DNA of 64,000 bases from Candidatus Saccharimonadota bacterium (GTDB taxonomy: Bacteria; Patescibacteriota; Saccharimonadia; Saccharimonadales; Saccharimonadaceae). The stretch lies in the NCBI GenBank assembly GCA_017514805.1, contig JAFWIP010000007.1, positions 1-64,000 of the forward strand, in the 5' to 3' direction. The position numbers and the translations under genes are program-made. Below, one piece after another: positions 425 through 49,335 of the stretch. The first letter of the stretch is position 1, and each line of letters opens with the position of its first letter. The notes beneath the pieces are model-generated. The model was not told where the DNA came from and searched no databases. It saw only the letters and a list, made by a program, of their open reading frames with translations.

Positions 425-856
425 ATGCCAATGTTATTCCCAAATAGAACCAAAAACCGCTATATCTTTGAAGAAAATATATATTTTAACGCTACTCAAA
501 TCTGCGAGCTACTTAAAATTTCTAGATCCTGCCTCAGTAAGCAGCTTAAAAGCGTCCTCGACATACCCGGTTGCCTCTCGGCCCGATTCCGCGCCGACTA
601 TCATGGCGAAAGATATAAAAAATACCGACGCGCAAAACTAGCGCACTACAACCTAAATACCGTCGTCGCCATCGCATATCGCATAAATAATGCCGCCTGT
701 AAGAAATTCTTAGACGATTACCATCGCGTAATTAACGGGCTCCATATTCGATTGGCCGGAACAAACTATTACATTCCAAGCAGCCTCTCTCCAGGAGAAT
801 TCCTTTATTACGCCAATAGAAACTGCCCGCCGTATCTGCTAGACTTCGAAAACTAG
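425..856 (+). CDS. RhuM/Bro-N-like protein
   Basis: Product of 143 residues if started at 425; an upstream ATG at 362 in the same frame would add 21 residues. I prefer 425 because GATAAT lies at 413-418, six bases before the ATG, matching the leaderless arrangement of many genes here. The protein has a short helix-turn-helix-like segment (NATQICELLKISRSCLSKQL) followed by a YNLNTVVAIAYRIN segment. That pair resembles the RhuM/Bro-N family, where 'tqaqmAeLF...' is followed by 'YNLDvIisVGYRV'. Such proteins are often linked to mobile DNA or host interaction, with no established biochemical role. It is convergent with the next gene and their stop codons overlap by 4 nt. Confidence 0.55.
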   Translation: MPMLFPNRTKNRYIFEENIYFNATQICELLKISRSCLSKQLKSVLDIPGCLSARFRADYHGERYKKYRRAKLAHYNLNTVVAIAYRINNAACKKFLDDYHRVINGLHIRLAGTNYYIPSSLSPGEFLYYANRNCPPYLLDFEN

Positions 857-1299
857 AAGCAAACCGACATCAAAAGCCCGATTCCAACCCCAAGGATACC
901 GCCAACAATCGCCTGCGGAATCGTATGGCCTTCAACCACTTTCACTTTTTTCTTCTTATAATTGCGATCCATAATCATTACATTTAGCAATTTTCCCTGC
1001 TCGCCAACCGCATAGCGCACATTAACTGCGTCGTAGACCACAATAATCGCCGTACAAAGCGACAAAATGCTAATAGGCGCAAATATACCAAACTTACATA
1101 TAAAGAAGGTTGTAAGGCCCGCAAAACTCGCTGTATGGCCACTTGGCATGCCACCACTACGCACAAAACAGTCGACCACATCATGAAGGCTCATCTGCCC
1201 TTTGCTACGAATTAAATCCCCTAATAGTTTTCCAGCCTGAGCCACAAACCATCCGATTACGAATGCCAGTAGCCCACCTAGCCCAGTTATATCTTCCAT
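853..1299 (-). CDS. Divergent PAP2-family membrane protein (YuiD/DUF212-like)
   Basis: 148-residue integral membrane protein with about four hydrophobic segments. The motif RSGGMPSGHTA near residues 47-57 is the signature of the divergent PAP2/acid phosphatase-vanadium haloperoxidase-related family (YuiD of Bacillus). These proteins are thought to hydrolyse lipid or other phosphate esters at the membrane, but substrates are not established. A -10-like TAATAT lies seven bases before the ATG, so the message is probably leaderless. The strong terminator of the RNA gene behind it isolates this gene from that transcript. Confidence 0.8.
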   Translation of the reverse strand: MEDITGLGGLLAFVIGWFVAQAGKLLGDLIRSKGQMSLHDVVDCFVRSGGMPSGHTASFAGLTTFFICKFGIFAPISILSLCTAIIVVYDAVNVRYAVGEQGKLLNVMIMDRNYKKKKVKVVEGHTIPQAIVGGILGVGIGLLMSVCF

Positions 1300-1315
1300 A
1301 CTCTATATATTACCA

Positions 1316-1352
1316 CAAAAAGATACCCCCGCCATAACCTCGGCGAGGGTAT
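1316..1352 (-). terminator. Terminator of unassigned RNA A
   Basis: On the minus strand ATACCCTCGCC, an 8 nt loop and GGCGGGGGTAT form a strong hairpin followed by CTTTTT. It ends the transcript that begins near 1707. Confidence 0.85.
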
Positions 1353-1707
1353 AAACCGGAACAATAAATAACTCTCTTCCTTGATATTGTTCCATTGATT
1401 GATAAAATTACAAATGCTATTGAATCCTTCTTAATTGTTCGGCGCAGGGGCTTATAAAGGGCGTTGGAGGAAAGTAGGGCTCTTATTCTTATTCTTGCCT
1501 AATTTTAGGCGGCCCGTAATGCCTCATTCCGGCTACATTTTTTTGCGTGATTTGCGATAGATTAATATCTAATCGCTAGTTGAGCCTTCAGATTCAACCT
1601 GCTACTTCCGTATCCTTTCCTATGGTTTCGTATAAATCGGTTATATACACCTCATCCTCGTAAGAGGATTCCACGCAATACGTTTTTCCCGAACTTGCAT
1701 TTGCAAT
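1323..1707 (-). ncRNA. Unassigned structured RNA A (~385 nt)
   Basis: No plausible ORF exists here, yet the segment has a perfect promoter upstream and a strong terminator at its end. On the minus strand I can pair many local helices: ATCCTC/GAGGAT around 1660, GTATA/TATAC around 1633, GTTGA/TCAAC around 1585, GCGAT.AGAT/ATCTATCGC around 1563, GCCT/AGGC around 1505 and GGAACAATA/TATTGTTCC between 1357 and 1392. GCGTG near 1668 can also pair with CACGC near 1548. RNase P RNA and tmRNA are found elsewhere in the window, and the segment lacks SRP RNA signatures, so I cannot assign a family. The boundaries follow the predicted start site and terminator. Confidence 0.7.
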
Positions 1708-1713
1708 GTACAC

Positions 1714-1742
1714 ATTATAGCACGCTCGTCATATTTTGTCAA
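1714..1742 (-). promoter_or_regulatory. Consensus sigma-70 promoter for RNA A
   Basis: On the minus strand TTGACA (1742-1737), a 17 nt spacer and TATAAT (1719-1714) form a perfect consensus promoter. The predicted start is near 1707. Confidence 0.9.
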
Positions 1743-1750
1743 TAGCAACA

Positions 1751-1780
1751 CAAAAAAGTAGCCCTTTTTACAGGGCTACT
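1751..1780 (-). terminator. Terminator after gyrA
   Basis: Minus-strand AGTAGCCC, an 8 nt loop and GGGCTACT are followed by TTTTTTG, just downstream of the gyrA stop. Confidence 0.85.
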
Positions 1781-1796
1781 TCTCTAGAAGATTAAC

Positions 1797-4478
1797 TTAT
1801 TTCTTCTTTGCTGCTGGTTTTACGGCTGGTTCCTCTGCTTTCGCGGACGCCTTTGCGTCAGCCTTTGGCTCTTCTTCCTCTGGCTCTTCCTTCGGTAAAA
1901 TACCGATTGAAGCTACCGCGTCGCCATCATTAAGGCGCATTACGCGAACACCCTGCGTTGCACGGCCCAAAGTAGGAATATCTTTCACTGCTACACGAAT
2001 CGCCTGACCACCAGTCGACATCATGATTACCTCTTCCGCCTCTGGATCGAGCGTATGCACCGCTGCGATTGGGCCAGTCTTAGAGGTAATTGCCGCGACC
2101 TTTACGCCAACACCGCCACGCTTATGTGGTGGGAAGTTTGTCGCCGCCGTCATCTTGCCGTAACCCTTCGTCGAAATCACAATCAACTTCTGGTTCTCTG
2201 GATCAGATACGACATCCATGCCGACCACTGTATCATTTGGACGGAGACGAACACCACGGACACCACGTGCCGCGCGACCCATTGGGCGAACATCTTTCTC
2301 ATTGAAGCGAACTGCCTGACCGGCCGAAGTCGAGATGATAATATCATTCTCGCCAGTTGTGCCGCGAACCCAACGCAATTCATCACCATCATCGAGCTTA
2401 ATCGTAATCAAGCCGTTCGTACGAATATTTGCGTAATCCTTGAGTGCAGTTTTCTTAATCGTACCCTTGGTAGTCGCCATAAAGAGGAAGCCATCTTCGC
2501 CAGCCTCAGCGCCCTGCTTAATTACAGAGGTAATCTTCTCTTCTGGGTGGAGGCTCAAGAGGTTAACCGAAGCCGTACCCTTCGCTACTAGAGATGACTG
2601 CGGGATTTCGTAAGCCTTGATGCGGAAAATACGACCTTGGTTTGTGAAGAATAATAGATAATCGTGGGAATTTGCCAAGATAATCGTATCGATAACATCT
2701 TCTTCCTTTGTCGTCATACCGCGACGGCCCTTACCGCCTCTGTTCTGCTTCTTGAAGTCATTCTGTAAGACACGCTTCACGTAACCCTGAGCAGTGAGCA
2801 AGACTACGCTTTCCTCATCTGGAATCAAGTCCTCCTCAGCAAACTTACCGAGCTCGTGATTAATAATCTTACTGCGACGAGGGTCACCGTATTTCTCTTT
2901 CATCGCAAGGAGCTCTTCCTTGATAACATCGAGAATCGCCTGCTCAGAAGCAAGGATCGCCTCAAGTTTAGCGATAAGCTCATGGAGTTCCTTGAGTTCG
3001 TTCTCAATCTTATCGCGCTCGAGTCCTTGGAGGCGGCGAAGCTGCATTGCCAAGATAGCGGCAGCTTGTACCTCTGATAGACCAAAGCGTTCCATGAGGC
3101 GCTTATCTGCGTCATCATAAGATTCGCGAATCGTTTTAATCACCTCATCGATATGGTCGAGCGCAATCTTCAAGCCTTCGAGAATATGCGCGCGTTCCTT
3201 TGCCTTATTAAGATCAAATTCTGTCCTACGGCGAATAACTTTTTGACGATGCTTGATAAACTCAGCGAGTATTTCTTTCAAACCCATGACCTTAGGTTGA
3301 ATACCGTCTACAAGCGCCAACACATTGTAGTGGAACGAAGTCTGCAAGCCAGTTAATTTATACAACTGATTCAAAATCTTCTTCGGGAAGGCGTCTTTCT
3401 TGAGTTCAACCACGACACGTATCTTACCGCGCGCAGATTCATCACGAGCATCAGAGATATGATCAAGCTTCTTCGCAAGTACGAGCTCGCGTACCTTATC
3501 GACGAAGGCTTCCTTACTCATGCCATAAGGCACCTCTGTAATAACGATCGCATAGCGACCATTCTTCTTCTCTTCAATATTCGCTACGGCACGAATCGTT
3601 ACCGAACCGCGACCAGTCTCATAGGCCTGCTTCATCGGTGCACCACCGTAAACCTCAGCACCCGTCGGGAAATCTGGACCCTTTACGTGCTTCATGAGCT
3701 CTTCGAGCGTAATTTCTGGGTTATCAATCTGCGCAATCGTCGCATCGACCACCTCACCAAGGTTGTGTGGCGGGATATTCGTTGCCATACCGACTGCGAT
3801 ACCCATCTGACCATTCAAGAGAATGTTTGGTACTGCCGCTGGCAATACCACTGGCTCCTGTTCGGTACCATCGAAGTTATCGCGAAAATCAACGGTATTC
3901 TTCTCGATATCGGCAAGAAGTTCTGCGCCGACCTTATCCATACGAGCCTCAGTGTAACGTGAAGCAGCTGCTTCATCGCCATCCATCGAACCGAAGTTAC
4001 CCTGACCTTCAACGAGCGTATAGCGCATCTTCCAAGGCTGAGCAAGGTTCACCATCGAGTCATAAATCGACGAATCGCCGTGTGGGTGGTATTTACCCAT
4101 CACTTCACCGACGATACGTGCGGACTTAACTGTCGCATGTGGCGCCTTCCAGCCGTTCTTATTCATTGCGTACAAGATACGGCGGTTCACCGGCTTAAGA
4201 CCATCGCGCACATCTGGAAGCGCGCGATCAATCAAGACTGACATTGAATAGCGAAGGAAGCTATCCTCCATCACGTTCTCAACCGTCAACTCTTCAACAC
4301 CATCCTCGGCTTTGTGAGCTTGTAGGCCACCGACCTTTACGACTTCTTCCTCTTCTGGAGCCGTCGCCCCGAGAGTTTCGTCAACGCCTTTGTCATCTGC
4401 GCTATCAGGAACATTCCCGACTTTGCTTTCGTCGCGTTCGTCTTCTGGATTATTTACTGTCTTTTTCTTATCTGCCAT
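1797..4478 (-). CDS. gyrA: DNA gyrase subunit A
   Basis: GyrA of 893 residues, the DNA-breaking subunit of type IIA topoisomerase that introduces negative supercoils with GyrB. An unusual acidic extension of about 65 residues precedes the family start ([16 protein letters not shown]). The active-site tyrosine is Y175 in ASRYTEAR. The quinolone-resistance region reads [10 protein letters not shown] with wild-type Ser136 and Asp140 (E. coli S83 and D87). A GyrA box (QNRGGKG) in the C-terminal beta-pinwheel marks a true gyrase rather than ParC. The tail is rich in Lys, Ala and Glu. It lies 14 nt downstream of gyrB with GGAGG before the ATG, so the two are cotranscribed and a terminator follows. 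Confidence 0.97.
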
Positions 4479-11581: not shown

Positions 11582-11948
11582 TGGTGGAGCTGCCGGATAC
11601 TGCCTCCGGGTCCGATAAATCTCCATGCATGCATTCTACGAGCATAGTCTATTCTTTTATCTTGGCACTCTCTAAAGGCTGGAATAAACAAAACCTCTAG
11701 ACGCCATGACTAAATTTTCGTGCCGACTACCGTCGCAAAGTCGACCTTAATACCATGAGTATAATACCGAAATCACGCTATGGTATCTCGAGTGACCCGA
11801 TAAGATCTACAAATTCAAGATCTTAGGCGTAAGCTGGCATGTATGCCACATGCTTACTAGCAGTTTTGTCTGCATTTACTTAAGTACTTACGGTACAACT
11901 CGACTCGCCTGCATACTGTTAATAAACCGTCTAAGCTTTGTCAGCCCC
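11582..11948 (-). ncRNA. ssrA: Transfer-messenger RNA (tmRNA)
   Basis: Ribosome-rescue RNA of 367 nt. The 5' GGGGCTG (11948-11942) pairs with 3' CAGCTCC, followed by ACCA at 11582, giving the seven-pair tRNA-like acceptor. The T-arm (GGACCCGGAGGCAGTATCCGG) closes near the 3' end. The tag frame at 11873-11823 begins GCA and ends TAA, encoding ADKTASKHVAYMPAYA, and a GATCTT/AGATC hairpin follows it as in helix 5. The tag ends in AYA rather than the usual ALAA. A TTGAAA-17-TAAAAT promoter lies upstream and a terminator downstream. It is divergent from comM and their promoters interleave. Confidence 0.95.
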
Positions 11949-44990: not shown

Positions 44991-47000
44991 CTACCACTCG
45001 AGTGTATAAGGATCAGTCGCCGTACCAGTACCGCCCGCGACATAAGTATCGTACTTGAACGAAACCATTGGACGAATACCGTATGCGTTCAGGTTATTCG
45101 TATAAATCAAATTTCCAACATCATAGCTACCTCTCTGTGAGTACATCTGGATCCCGTCTGGCAAGGTACCGTAGCCGACTTTAGCCGAAATAGCAGGCGT
45201 CATCGAGAACATATCTGAGCCATACAAATAAGTCAATCTCCAGTCACCCTGTCCATCAACCCATTTATAGCCAGACAGCATTAATTCATCGGCAGTAATA
45301 ATCGCCATTGGGTGTTTCAGCTTGCCGTTTCCATTCTCGCTACTTACAGTAAATTTATCATCCTCGCGCTCACAATCGACAGATGGCACACCCTGCATTA
45401 CTCTATCGTAACCAGCCATCGTTGTAGCTCCCGGCTCGTAGTTATGATCGTCCAATAATGCATATGGGCCGCTCGTGATCTTTCTATCATTGCACCACTG
45501 CGTATCTTCAAATTTATCTGTTTCATCAGCTAAATTACTTTCATACCACTGGTCTAGATACATCTTCAACTGCGAATCACGCTCATTTGATAAGAATTCG
45601 CGTTTTGCATCATCGCCAGTCTTTCCGTTCTCTAGTGGCCAGTGGAAGATTATGCCAGAAGTACTATCACTCATAGAGGAAGAAATAATGAAGCCTGCCG
45701 ATTCGCAAGTATCATTCGCGCTAGCCGAGAAACAAGTGTAATAGTAACGTGGCGTAGAAGTATCGTAATAGTTAGCGCTTGGGAACATAGCCGTATCGCC
45801 AGTAAGTTTATATACCCCATTCTCATAGCTGATGCCACGGCTCACCGCTACAGGCTCACTTATATAGAGACCAAGCGAAGCACCGTAGGAATAAATTTTT
45901 CTGCCTGTCGGATTAGGGACATATTGACCGTCCGTATAACCGTCGAAATGATAATTCGCATTAAACATATAGCCAGCAGAGACAAGCCCAGACGAAGGGT
46001 TATACATTCCGTAAGTATCGATATTATTCGTATAAGCCATCGAGGTATAGTATGGCGCAGTTCCGCTCTTCGAACATGTACCGTCATTCTTAACTGGACC
46101 ACTGTAGATAATCTTCGTACCACCAGTGCCCGTAGTGCGAACAATATTCCAACAAATGTTATTGTATTTTACAAAATTATTCTGTACTCTACCACGATAA
46201 TAATAGACTGCTTTTTCGCCAGCCGCTGGGCGCGAGTACGTATATACGCCCTCTTCTACTGGCGTAAAGTAGCGACCAATATCGTCAAAATCTCTGTTTA
46301 CGGCTGTTGCATTAAAATCAATGCCAGCATCCGAACCGAGCGTCTGTCTTGCAACCTCATCATAAAGGCGTAGACGGCTAGGCGTTAATGGTTCATCGCT
46401 AATCTCGAATATCACGTAAATATGATATTCCGAGTCAACATAAGGGCTCGGATTAGATTCAGCAACTAAGCCATCTTGGCTATAGGTCATTTCGCCCGTA
46501 ATATTCGCATCACAGTTAAACATTGCAGATTTTAGAAGCGATTCGGTTGTAGCGCCAGGAGCAAGGGGCTCATTGTAATAGTAGTAGCCGTCATTAGCAA
46601 GCGTCCACTTATCGTCATTCTGAGTATTATAAAATGCGTATTTATGCGTACCACTACCGTCAGTCCAGCTCATAGCTAAGTCACTTGTTTCGTGATCGGT
46701 CTGTTGGCTATTTTGAACACGCCAATAATCATTAATCTTCATGCGAACATAGCGCGGGGTATCGTTTTTATTCTTAACGCCTGCAGTTTTTGGATATTCT
46801 TGGCATGGCTGCCAATCTTCAACAAGCGGAACAATATCGAATGCCTCAATCTCATCGCTCGCTAAGCGAAAATGATTATTAAACATTGTTGCGGCTTGGT
46901 TATATGCAATCGTTCCTCCCACAGCGAGTATGGCAAGACTTACACCAGCAATAGCAAGCTTCCGCTTATTGCTCGGCGAAATGTTTTTGAAACGCTTCAT
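44991..47000 (-). CDS. Large TasA-type surface protein, paralogue 1
   Basis: 669 residues. A SipW-type signal (KRKLAIAGVSLAILAVGGTIAYNQ) and a TasA-like domain (YVRMKINDYWRV, YYYYNEPLAPGATTESLL, EYHIYVIFEISDEP) precede a central Tyr/Gly-rich region and a C-terminal module. That module holds WCNDRKI, PSVDCEREDDKFT, ITADELMLSG, SMTPAIS and RPMVSFKYDT...GTATDPYTLEW, shared with the next paralogue and with the gene at the right edge. No C-terminal anchor is seen, so it may be held by TasA-like assembly. It has a consensus promoter with a conserved leader (AGGTCAAAAAGGTCAAAATG). Confidence 0.8.
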   Translation of the reverse strand: MKRFKNISPSNKRKLAIAGVSLAILAVGGTIAYNQAATMFNNHFRLASDEIEAFDIVPLVEDWQPCQEYPKTAGVKNKNDTPRYVRMKINDYWRVQNSQQTDHETSDLAMSWTDGSGTHKYAFYNTQNDDKWTLANDGYYYYNEPLAPGATTESLLKSAMFNCDANITGEMTYSQDGLVAESNPSPYVDSEYHIYVIFEISDEPLTPSRLRLYDEVARQTLGSDAGIDFNATAVNRDFDDIGRYFTPVEEGVYTYSRPAAGEKAVYYYRGRVQNNFVKYNNICWNIVRTTGTGGTKIIYSGPVKNDGTCSKSGTAPYYTSMAYTNNIDTYGMYNPSSGLVSAGYMFNANYHFDGYTDGQYVPNPTGRKIYSYGASLGLYISEPVAVSRGISYENGVYKLTGDTAMFPSANYYDTSTPRYYYTCFSASANDTCESAGFIISSSMSDSTSGIIFHWPLENGKTGDDAKREFLSNERDSQLKMYLDQWYESNLADETDKFEDTQWCNDRKITSGPYALLDDHNYEPGATTMAGYDRVMQGVPSVDCEREDDKFTVSSENGNGKLKHPMAIITADELMLSGYKWVDGQGDWRLTYLYGSDMFSMTPAISAKVGYGTLPDGIQMYSQRGSYDVGNLIYTNNLNAYGIRPMVSFKYDTYVAGGTGTATDPYTLEW

Positions 47001-47043: not shown

Positions 47044-47072
47044 ATTATAACTATCAATTTCTCCCCTGTCAA
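47044..47072 (-). promoter_or_regulatory. Promoter of surface paralogue 1
   Basis: Minus-strand TTGACA (47072-47067), a 17 nt spacer and TATAAT (47049-47044). The following leader AAGCATAACAATTTTGCAAA is identical in the paralogue at 49378-49406. Confidence 0.9.
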
Positions 47073-47358: not shown

Positions 47359-49335
47359 CTACCACTCTAGCGTATACGGATTAGATGCCGTACCATCACC
47401 GTCAGCAACATAAGTATCATAGATCATCGAAATCACTGGGCGCACACGATAATCGCCGCATCCACGCGAACCGCAGTTATTCCCGCCCATTGACTGCGAC
47501 CAATAGATCGTATATATCACGTTATTTTCATCAATCACATTATAGACCTGGCTCATTGTCCACGAATCAGACCAACGATGCTCACCAGTTTGATCGTGCG
47601 GCATTGAAAGATAGTTCGTATCAGCATTAGTTCCATACAATATACCAGCAAGTGAAAGCTCGTCTGCCGTCATTAGGCCAACCTTATACGTCAACTTACC
47701 ATTCCCAGTCGCACTTTCCTGCTTCGTAAACGAATCGCGTTTATTAGGACAATCAACACTTGGCTGGTTTACGCGAACTACGCGATAACCAGGACCATAC
47801 CAAGCCCAATCATTATTCGCACGCGACACGCCAGCGTCCTTAGAGCCTAAAGCCTGATTATAGACAGTTCTATCATCGCAATAAACCGTATCTTCAAGCT
47901 TATCTTCGACCGACGCCATATTATTCCCAAACCACGTTTCTACCGTTTTCTTCGCTTCGGAATCATAATCATTTGCATAAACACCATTCTCGTCATCAAT
48001 CTTACCGCCATTTGTGAACTCTACGCTCTTGCTCGAAAATACCCAATCACTTCCGGATTGATAACTTGTTATTTCGACCGAGTATAAAACTTTTTCGCAA
48101 CTTGCACTACCATCCTGACAATAATAGTGTTTATTGTTATAGAAGTCATTGATTACTTCATATATTTTACCCGATGAAGTATTCCTTAGCTCATAATGAC
48201 CATTCACATACTCTACGTCATTACCAACAACAATATTATCCTCGCTGCTTGTTCGATGCTCTGTACAAATATACAAATATCGACGGTTAAACATATAGCC
48301 TACAATGCCAGGTGAAGTTTTGTAGCGATATCCAACCCAGCACCCATCGAGCCAGCTATCGCTATCGTCTTGCGGATCAACATAGTGTGTAAGGTCTTCA
48401 AGCTCCGTACTAATACCGACATTATTGCAGACCATAGCACCATTCTCTTCATTTGGCGTACCTGCGTAGACCATCTTCACACCGCCAGTGCCAGTCGTTC
48501 GAACCATTTTCCAACATTGATTATTAAAGAGGACATTATTATCGGAGACCTCGCCGCGATAATAATAAACTGGTTTATCGTCATCTTTGTGTGCAGCCAA
48601 AGTATTTACGCCGTTGCCATTCCCATCACTAACGGTAGCAGCCTGCGCAAAATTAACATCGCTGTCTACTCCGCTCGTCTGACTTGCCACTAAATCATAA
48701 AGTCGCGTTCTAGAAATCATTGGCTCGTCACTAATCTGAAAAGTTACATAAATATGAAATTCAGCGTTGGAATATGGCGACACAATCGTCTCCGCAACTA
48801 AACCATCTTGGCTATAACTCGTCTCACCGCCAAAGTTAGCATCACAGTTAAACATTGCAGATTTTAGAAGTGATTCGGTTGTAGCGCCACCTGCGAGTGG
48901 TTGGTAGTAGTAATACCAGCCATCGTTATTAAGATTCCATTTGTCGTCATTTTGAGTGAGATAGTAAGCGTATTCATGTGTGCCAGAACCATCAGTCCAG
49001 GTCATAGGAAGATCAGATGTTTCATGGTCGGTCTGCGTACTATTTTCTACGCGCCAATATGTATTAATTTTCATCCTGACATAACGCGAATCATTATTTT
49101 TATTCTTCACGACAGCAGTCTTCGGATACTCTTCGCAAGGCTGAGCTGTATTACGTTCAATAGGTACGACATCTATTGCCTCAATCTCATCTGTAGCAAG
49201 TTTAAAATTGTTGCTAAATATCGATGCGGTTTGGTTATATGCAATTGTTCCGCCAATCGCGAGAACCGCCAGCCCAACACCAGCAACAGCAAGCTTCCGC
49301 CTATTGCTTAGCGTAATATTCTTGAAACGCTTCAT
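47359..49335 (-). CDS. Large TasA-type surface protein, paralogue 2
   Basis: 658 residues, about the same architecture as paralogue 1. The N-terminal 220 residues are closely similar (signal, YVRMKINTYWRV, YYYYQPLAGGATTESLL), the middle is divergent, and the C-terminus has the shared module: YCDDRTV, QPSVDCPNKRDSFT, MTADELSLAG, SWTMSQVYN and RPVISMIYDTYVADGDGTASNPYTLEW. A tRNA-Arg gene and repeats separate the copies. The promoter and leader are duplicated too, so the unit was copied whole. Divergent middle parts suggest different binding partners (inference). Confidence 0.8.
   Translation of the reverse strand: MKRFKNITLSNRRKLAVAGVGLAVLAIGGTIAYNQTASIFSNNFKLATDEIEAIDVVPIERNTAQPCEEYPKTAVVKNKNNDSRYVRMKINTYWRVENSTQTDHETSDLPMTWTDGSGTHEYAYYLTQNDDKWNLNNDGWYYYYQPLAGGATTESLLKSAMFNCDANFGGETSYSQDGLVAETIVSPYSNAEFHIYVTFQISDEPMISRTRLYDLVASQTSGVDSDVNFAQAATVSDGNGNGVNTLAAHKDDDKPVYYYRGEVSDNNVLFNNQCWKMVRTTGTGGVKMVYAGTPNEENGAMVCNNVGISTELEDLTHYVDPQDDSDSWLDGCWVGYRYKTSPGIVGYMFNRRYLYICTEHRTSSEDNIVVGNDVEYVNGHYELRNTSSGKIYEVINDFYNNKHYYCQDGSASCEKVLYSVEITSYQSGSDWVFSSKSVEFTNGGKIDDENGVYANDYDSEAKKTVETWFGNNMASVEDKLEDTVYCDDRTVYNQALGSKDAGVSRANNDWAWYGPGYRVVRVNQPSVDCPNKRDSFTKQESATGNGKLTYKVGLMTADELSLAGILYGTNADTNYLSMPHDQTGEHRWSDSWTMSQVYNVIDENNVIYTIYWSQSMGGNNCGSRGCGDYRVRPVISMIYDTYVADGDGTASNPYTLEW

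Follow-up and report, generated by a model that had tools for sequence, protein, structure and literature searches.

What is encoded by the stretch without a long open reading frame that lies between gyrA and a divergent-PAP2 family gene, near the start of the window (the whole 64-kb stretch of DNA that was analysed)? An earlier note had singled it out as a non-coding segment with a perfect promoter, a strong terminator and many internal helices, and had supposed that the RNA serves a general function. To our knowledge, very little is known about the noncoding RNAs of CPR bacteria. We consider it very probable that a noncoding RNA gene is present at this locus. The fuller reading, namely that the gene is independent and its RNA a trans-acting branched rod, replaceable and occupying a slot subject to turnover, is given a probability of about 0.5, a figure that covers it loosely.

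The RNA gene is on the minus strand, between the two protein-coding genes, and the features of the locus are listed below in the direction of transcription. Both ends of the RNA are inferred from the sequence, with the 5′ end placed 7 nt past the -10 element.

1797 to 4478, minus strand: gyrA, the upstream neighbour of the RNA gene
1751 to 1786, minus strand: terminator of gyrA, dividing gyrA from the RNA gene
1714 to 1742, minus strand: promoter of the RNA, with TTGACA at 1742-1737, a 17-nt spacer and the extended -10 element TGC-TATAAT (TATAAT at 1719-1714)
1316 to 1707, minus strand: predicted noncoding RNA, ~390 nt
1316 to 1352, minus strand: intrinsic terminator of the RNA, a 12-bp G+C-rich stem (1352-1323) followed by the T-run CTTTTTG
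1307 to 1315, minus strand: extended -10 element of PAP2, TGGTAATAT, 7 nt before the PAP2 ATG
853 to 1299, minus strand: divergent-PAP2 family gene (PF02681), the downstream neighbour of the RNA gene

The promoter, TTGACA-17-TGCTATAAT (1742-1714, minus strand; TTGACAAAATATGACGAGCGTGCTATAAT in full), matches the consensus at 12 of 12 bases with a 17-nt spacer, and has the TG of an extended -10 element in addition to what had been claimed for it. The terminator is likewise as described, and the largest ORF in the intergenic region does not exceed 41 aa, in agreement with a non-coding segment. Only one other perfect 12/12 promoter match is found in the 64-kb window, where 0.03 would be expected by chance (estimated from shuffles). 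By eye, the window's genes for RNase P RNA, tmRNA and most tRNAs are preceded by a TGNTANNNT-like -10 element and show little or no match to a -35 element, and the promoter of the RNA is therefore nearer to the consensus than theirs.

The other perfect TTGACA-17-TATAAT is at 47044-47072 (minus strand), upstream of a gene (44991-47000) for a 669-aa surface-protein-like product, which has a tandem paralogue at 47359-49335. The RNA promoter, spacer included, has a second copy in the genome (L003, G000:C9, 1501-1534), 85 % identical over 34 nt and ahead of a membrane-protein ORF, and another in G023 (L002, G023:C3); conservation of the spacer among these copies may reflect a shared regulator. A motif made up of promoter plus start, TGTGCTAYAATNNATRNATACG, matched only three gyrA loci and the comEC genes of two genomes, and was read as chance. 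In two species (L041 and L043; G024 and G001; near position 1500), comEC contains a strong promoter-like site in antisense orientation, probably a chance product of conserved codons. The contig starts shortly downstream of PAP2, and contigs of relatives break there too, beside the 16S rRNA gene.

When the segment was searched against Rfam 15, as the earlier note had proposed, no family reached its gathering cutoff and only chance-level matches were seen up to an E value of 10, so a hit to a known family, which that note said would count against it, was not found. The models for 6S RNA (up to E 10) and for the ornate large RNAs ROOL, GOLLD, OLE and raiA did not match the segment. Origin from a phage or plasmid was considered and no match was found; a guide-RNA or CRISPR-like array was set aside, as the repeats amount to one 11-nt repeat in two copies and a TCTTAT microsatellite. 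No Saccharibacteria RNA of this kind was found described in the literature. That the segment is neither tmRNA nor RNase P RNA, as the earlier note held, is borne out by the genuine genes elsewhere in the window.

11582 to 11948, minus strand: tmRNA, missed by ARAGORN though its Rfam match scores 83 bits
19723 to 20071: RNase P RNA, identified with Rfam

A further reading is that the RNA is a divergent form of the SRP RNA missing from this lineage. The Rfam SRP models (RF00169 and RF01854) detect no SRP RNA in the source genome, and a GNRA-like loop followed by AGCAG is present within the RNA, both of which would suit this reading. However, the same models do not match the segment itself, the RNA is missing from 43 of the 45 genus genomes, and none of the ten genus genomes searched for Ffh, including the source genome (G000), had one over the family cutoff, the single weak sub-cutoff match being in G046. 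This absence matches the loss of SRP already published for CPR bacteria (PMC4508563, PMC8080830). Because no Ffh was found, we reject SRP RNA and give this reading practically no weight, unless an Ffh has escaped recognition; the earlier note had also set SRP RNA aside, by sequence. The small SRP model gave one sub-threshold match among 21 genomes and the large model none among 41. SRP RNA and Ffh alike went undetected in those genomes of the genus that were searched.

The RNA and PAP2 are on the same strand, with ~24 nt between the end of the terminator and the start codon of PAP2, an arrangement consistent with a 5′ leader or riboswitch of PAP2 in which the terminator is a conditional attenuator. 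This is improbable because a -10 element belonging to PAP2 itself lies close to the start of the gene, even in junctions lacking the RNA: a matching TGNTANNNT element near the PAP2 start codon was found in 23 of the 28 junctions of relatives, RNA-less ones included. In addition, PAP2 in G059, G053, G055 and G051 is preceded by a spacer of a mere 50-65 nt, and no riboswitch family model matched the segment. In most relatives, ~7 nt separate the -10 element from the start codon, so that PAP2 appears to be leaderless.

The source genome belongs to a genus of Saccharibacteria. The core of the RNA in G000 is identical to that in the sister species G046 at 232 of 272 aligned bases (85 %), while between the same genomes identity at fourfold sites is 67-68 % for gyrA, gyrB and PAP2. 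On this comparison, the RNA gene is judged to be under selection as RNA. The promoters differ at one base. The two RNAs differ by indels of 1, 2, 7 and 16 nt, which would break any long reading frame, and have no long ORF in common. The nearest named record with the RNA, Candidatus Saccharibacteria RGIG5861 from sheep jejunum, matches G046 in sequence. A micro-peptide of 11-12 aa (MRHYGPP...) has its first seven codons in common with G046, but there is no synonymous change in this block, nonsynonymous changes and unequal length are found beyond it, no Shine-Dalgarno is present and a longer ORF of 30 aa is interrupted by a stop in G046. Hence, a coding function of this kind is most unlikely.

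The elements of the predicted fold are as follows.

1697 to 1707, minus strand: 5′ arm of P1, AUUGCAAAUGC, identical in G046, pairing with 1407-1417
1689 to 1694, minus strand: 5′ arm of P2, GUUCGG, predicted to pair with CCGAAC at 1437-1442
1580 to 1605, minus strand: invariant block GTAGCAGGTTGAATCTGAAGGCTCAA, identical in G046
1507 to 1538, minus strand: near-invariant block ATGTAGCYGGAATGAGGCATTACGGGCCGCCT, with a single difference from G046
1407 to 1417, minus strand: 3′ arm of P1, GCAUUUGUAAU, predicted to pair with 1697-1707
1358 to 1393, minus strand: predicted 3′ hairpin with arms at 1385-1393 and 1358-1366, outside the domain closed by P1

The predicted 11-bp P1 joins the 5′ end of the RNA to bases ~290 nt downstream, and the rod is extended by P2, by a helix around CUUACGAGG and CCUUUAUAAG and by another around GGAAGUAG and CUACUUUCC. 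The two near-invariant blocks fall in small apical hairpins in this prediction, and the 3′ hairpin followed by the terminator closes the transcript.

Folding energy alone is weak evidence for structure in this RNA. As a single sequence, the whole transcript has a z score of -2.9 including the terminator hairpin; without this hairpin the body reaches -1.8 and its complement -2.1, and RNase P RNA reaches only -2.1 by the same measure. The comparison with G046 is more informative. The G000/G046 consensus fold has a z score of -4.1 for the RNA strand, whereas the complementary strand reaches -1.9. The minimum free energy structure of the G000 RNA, predicted without G046, has 5 pairs broken in G046 against 11.3 expected (P=0.002), and the same test on the complement strand was not significant. 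The reciprocal test, with the G046 structure imposed on G000, went in the same direction and was not significant (P 0.12-0.24). Among the 92 pairs of the RNAalifold consensus, made from two sequences only, two have compensatory changes. The many internal helices seen by the earlier note are thus not significant in the single sequence, and it is the comparison with G046 that speaks for structure. An own promoter and terminator, selection on the sequence and strand-specific pairing, the last seen in two sequences only and in one direction of the test, are the marks of a structured noncoding RNA gene, and each was found here.

The RNA is not widespread. A blastn search of the first 40 genomes found no full-length relative, and the covariance model that the earlier note had called for, built from the G000 and G046 sequences, recovered these two genomes and no other of the 45 in the genus. 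A weak match to the model in G020 overlaps coding sequence and was read as chance. Conservation, the absence of which from related genomes was to speak against the earlier note, therefore extends to one sister species and not to the genus. The supposed general function is not supported, as the corresponding position in close relatives is taken by an unrelated RNA or by a spacer of 50-90 nt. Because close relatives lack the RNA or have another one, it looks like a lineage-specific and replaceable RNA rather than a universal housekeeping one, judging from its distribution.

The order gyrA-PAP2 is kept in relatives, with the 16S rRNA gene just beyond PAP2 in several, and 32 gyrA-PAP2 junctions from 31 genomes were surveyed. 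Ten of these have spacers of up to 90 nt, including G059 (63 nt, no covariance-model match), and several others contain protein genes. Seven (G000, G046, G056, G060, G048, G022 and G004) are 403-529 nt long and have no ORF >65 aa, a TTGACR-17 promoter, which is found in none of the remaining 25, and a terminator. These seven are mostly without detectable homology to one another. The fourfold-site identities of gyrA (G000-G046, 0.70; G000-G056, 0.71; G046-G056, 0.73) make G000, G046 and G056 about equally close, but the ORF-less transcript predicted in the G056 slot resembles neither of the other two RNAs using nhmmer. With a sequence-plus-structure aligner custom-written for cassette pairs, G056 scored z -0.3 and 0.05 against G000 and G046, respectively, compared to 7.6 for G000-G046. 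When five cassettes were searched against 160 relatives, with scoring limited to the two best candidates in each genome, four matched their own genome only and the G000 type also matched G046; two additional 25-nt matches were at chance level. Hence, the junction survey points to a site of turnover for predicted ORF-less, strongly promoted transcripts of ~300-400 nt.

Alternatively, the seven transcripts could belong to one fast-evolving, genus-wide family, i.e. be drifted homologues rather than replaced cassettes. They share the slot, the promoter design with its 17-nt spacer and a similar length; the structural score for G000-G022 exceeds those of all 120 shuffles (z 2.3), and nhmmer gives a weak match for G048-G022 (E 0.003). 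Scores for G048-G022, G060-G022 and G060-G048 are weak (z 1.1-1.8, with 1.8 for G060-G022). Against a single family, G046-G022 reaches only z 1.4, the pairs of G056 with G000 and G046 are at about 0 despite equal kinship, the G000/G046 model fails to recognize the other junctions, and the slot lacks an RNA of this type in G059, among others. We view common descent as possible though doubtful, and prefer turnover. A motif common to three of the junction RNAs, GGAAG..UAG.AUAAAA, had no match in 295 genomes, a sample that excluded those three genomes. A more speculative and rather unlikely proposal is that the junction is a dedicated hypervariable RNA locus of gut Saccharibacteria, a conserved strong-promoter slot in which swapping or diversification of the RNA outpaces divergence at neutral sites, as would be expected in an arms race with a phage, host or mobile element.

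Among the other junctions, those of G005 and G044 (L026, L047) contain an ORF-poor insert of ~1.03 kb that has a weaker promoter, folds with a z score of -6.2 (complement -3.0) and has no Rfam match; it is a candidate giant structured RNA. Most of this insert is deleted in G058 (L027). The 233-nt junction of G047 (L048) has, by eye, a long near-perfect inverted repeat with ~33 bp arms, GCCGAGAAGGGGCGTATAGCTGCTTTCTTGGCA...

The explanation we prefer is an independent noncoding RNA gene on the minus strand, equipped with a consensus promoter and a terminator of its own and with a sequence kept by selection. In the predicted strand-specific fold, P1 would tie the 5′ end to bases ~290 nt downstream, with the enclosed helices forming a long branched rod. 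The strong promoter, and P1 and the terminator as seals of the two ends, suggest an abundant and long-lived RNA, which would act in trans as a structured RNA. Judging from the anatomy of the gene, the likeliest action would be to bind, sequester or scaffold protein, and a protein-binding or scaffolding role is put forward tentatively. Base pairing with mRNA would be less likely. An independent promoter and terminator, invariant blocks partly in loops and a lineage-restricted distribution, which is common among sRNAs, would fit a trans-acting base-pairing sRNA controlling one or a few mRNAs, but base-pairing sRNAs are typically shorter and less closed than this RNA, and we consider this unlikely.

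The locus provides a defined noncoding RNA candidate that, as predicted from its promoter, should be one of the most strongly transcribed RNAs in a gut Saccharibacterium, at a place where unlike RNAs appear to replace one another under one promoter design. Should these RNAs prove abundant, the locus offers a way into the RNA biology of organisms that have apparently lost SRP. Should recombination be what swaps them, it would be a rare cassette locus for noncoding RNA.

Among known systems, ROOL, GOLLD, OLE and raiA are, like this RNA, standalone or intergenic, long and structured, without a known catalytic role and of narrow to patchy spread. However, the RNA (~390 nt) is shorter than ROOL, GOLLD and OLE, and differs from all four in having no Rfam match, no phage or plasmid relatives found and a range of two species only. 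It resembles 6S and other protein-binding housekeeping RNAs in its predicted rod-like shape and paired ends and its own strong promoter, and in that it is predicted to bind protein, but it does not match 6S, is about twice as long and is not conserved across the genus. Comparative genomics (for instance DIMPL-type searches, PMC8723152) has also turned up orphan structured RNAs of bacteria, which are conserved, lie in long intergenic regions and have an unknown function; relative to these, the RNA described here has a very narrow distribution and occupies a slot with turnover.
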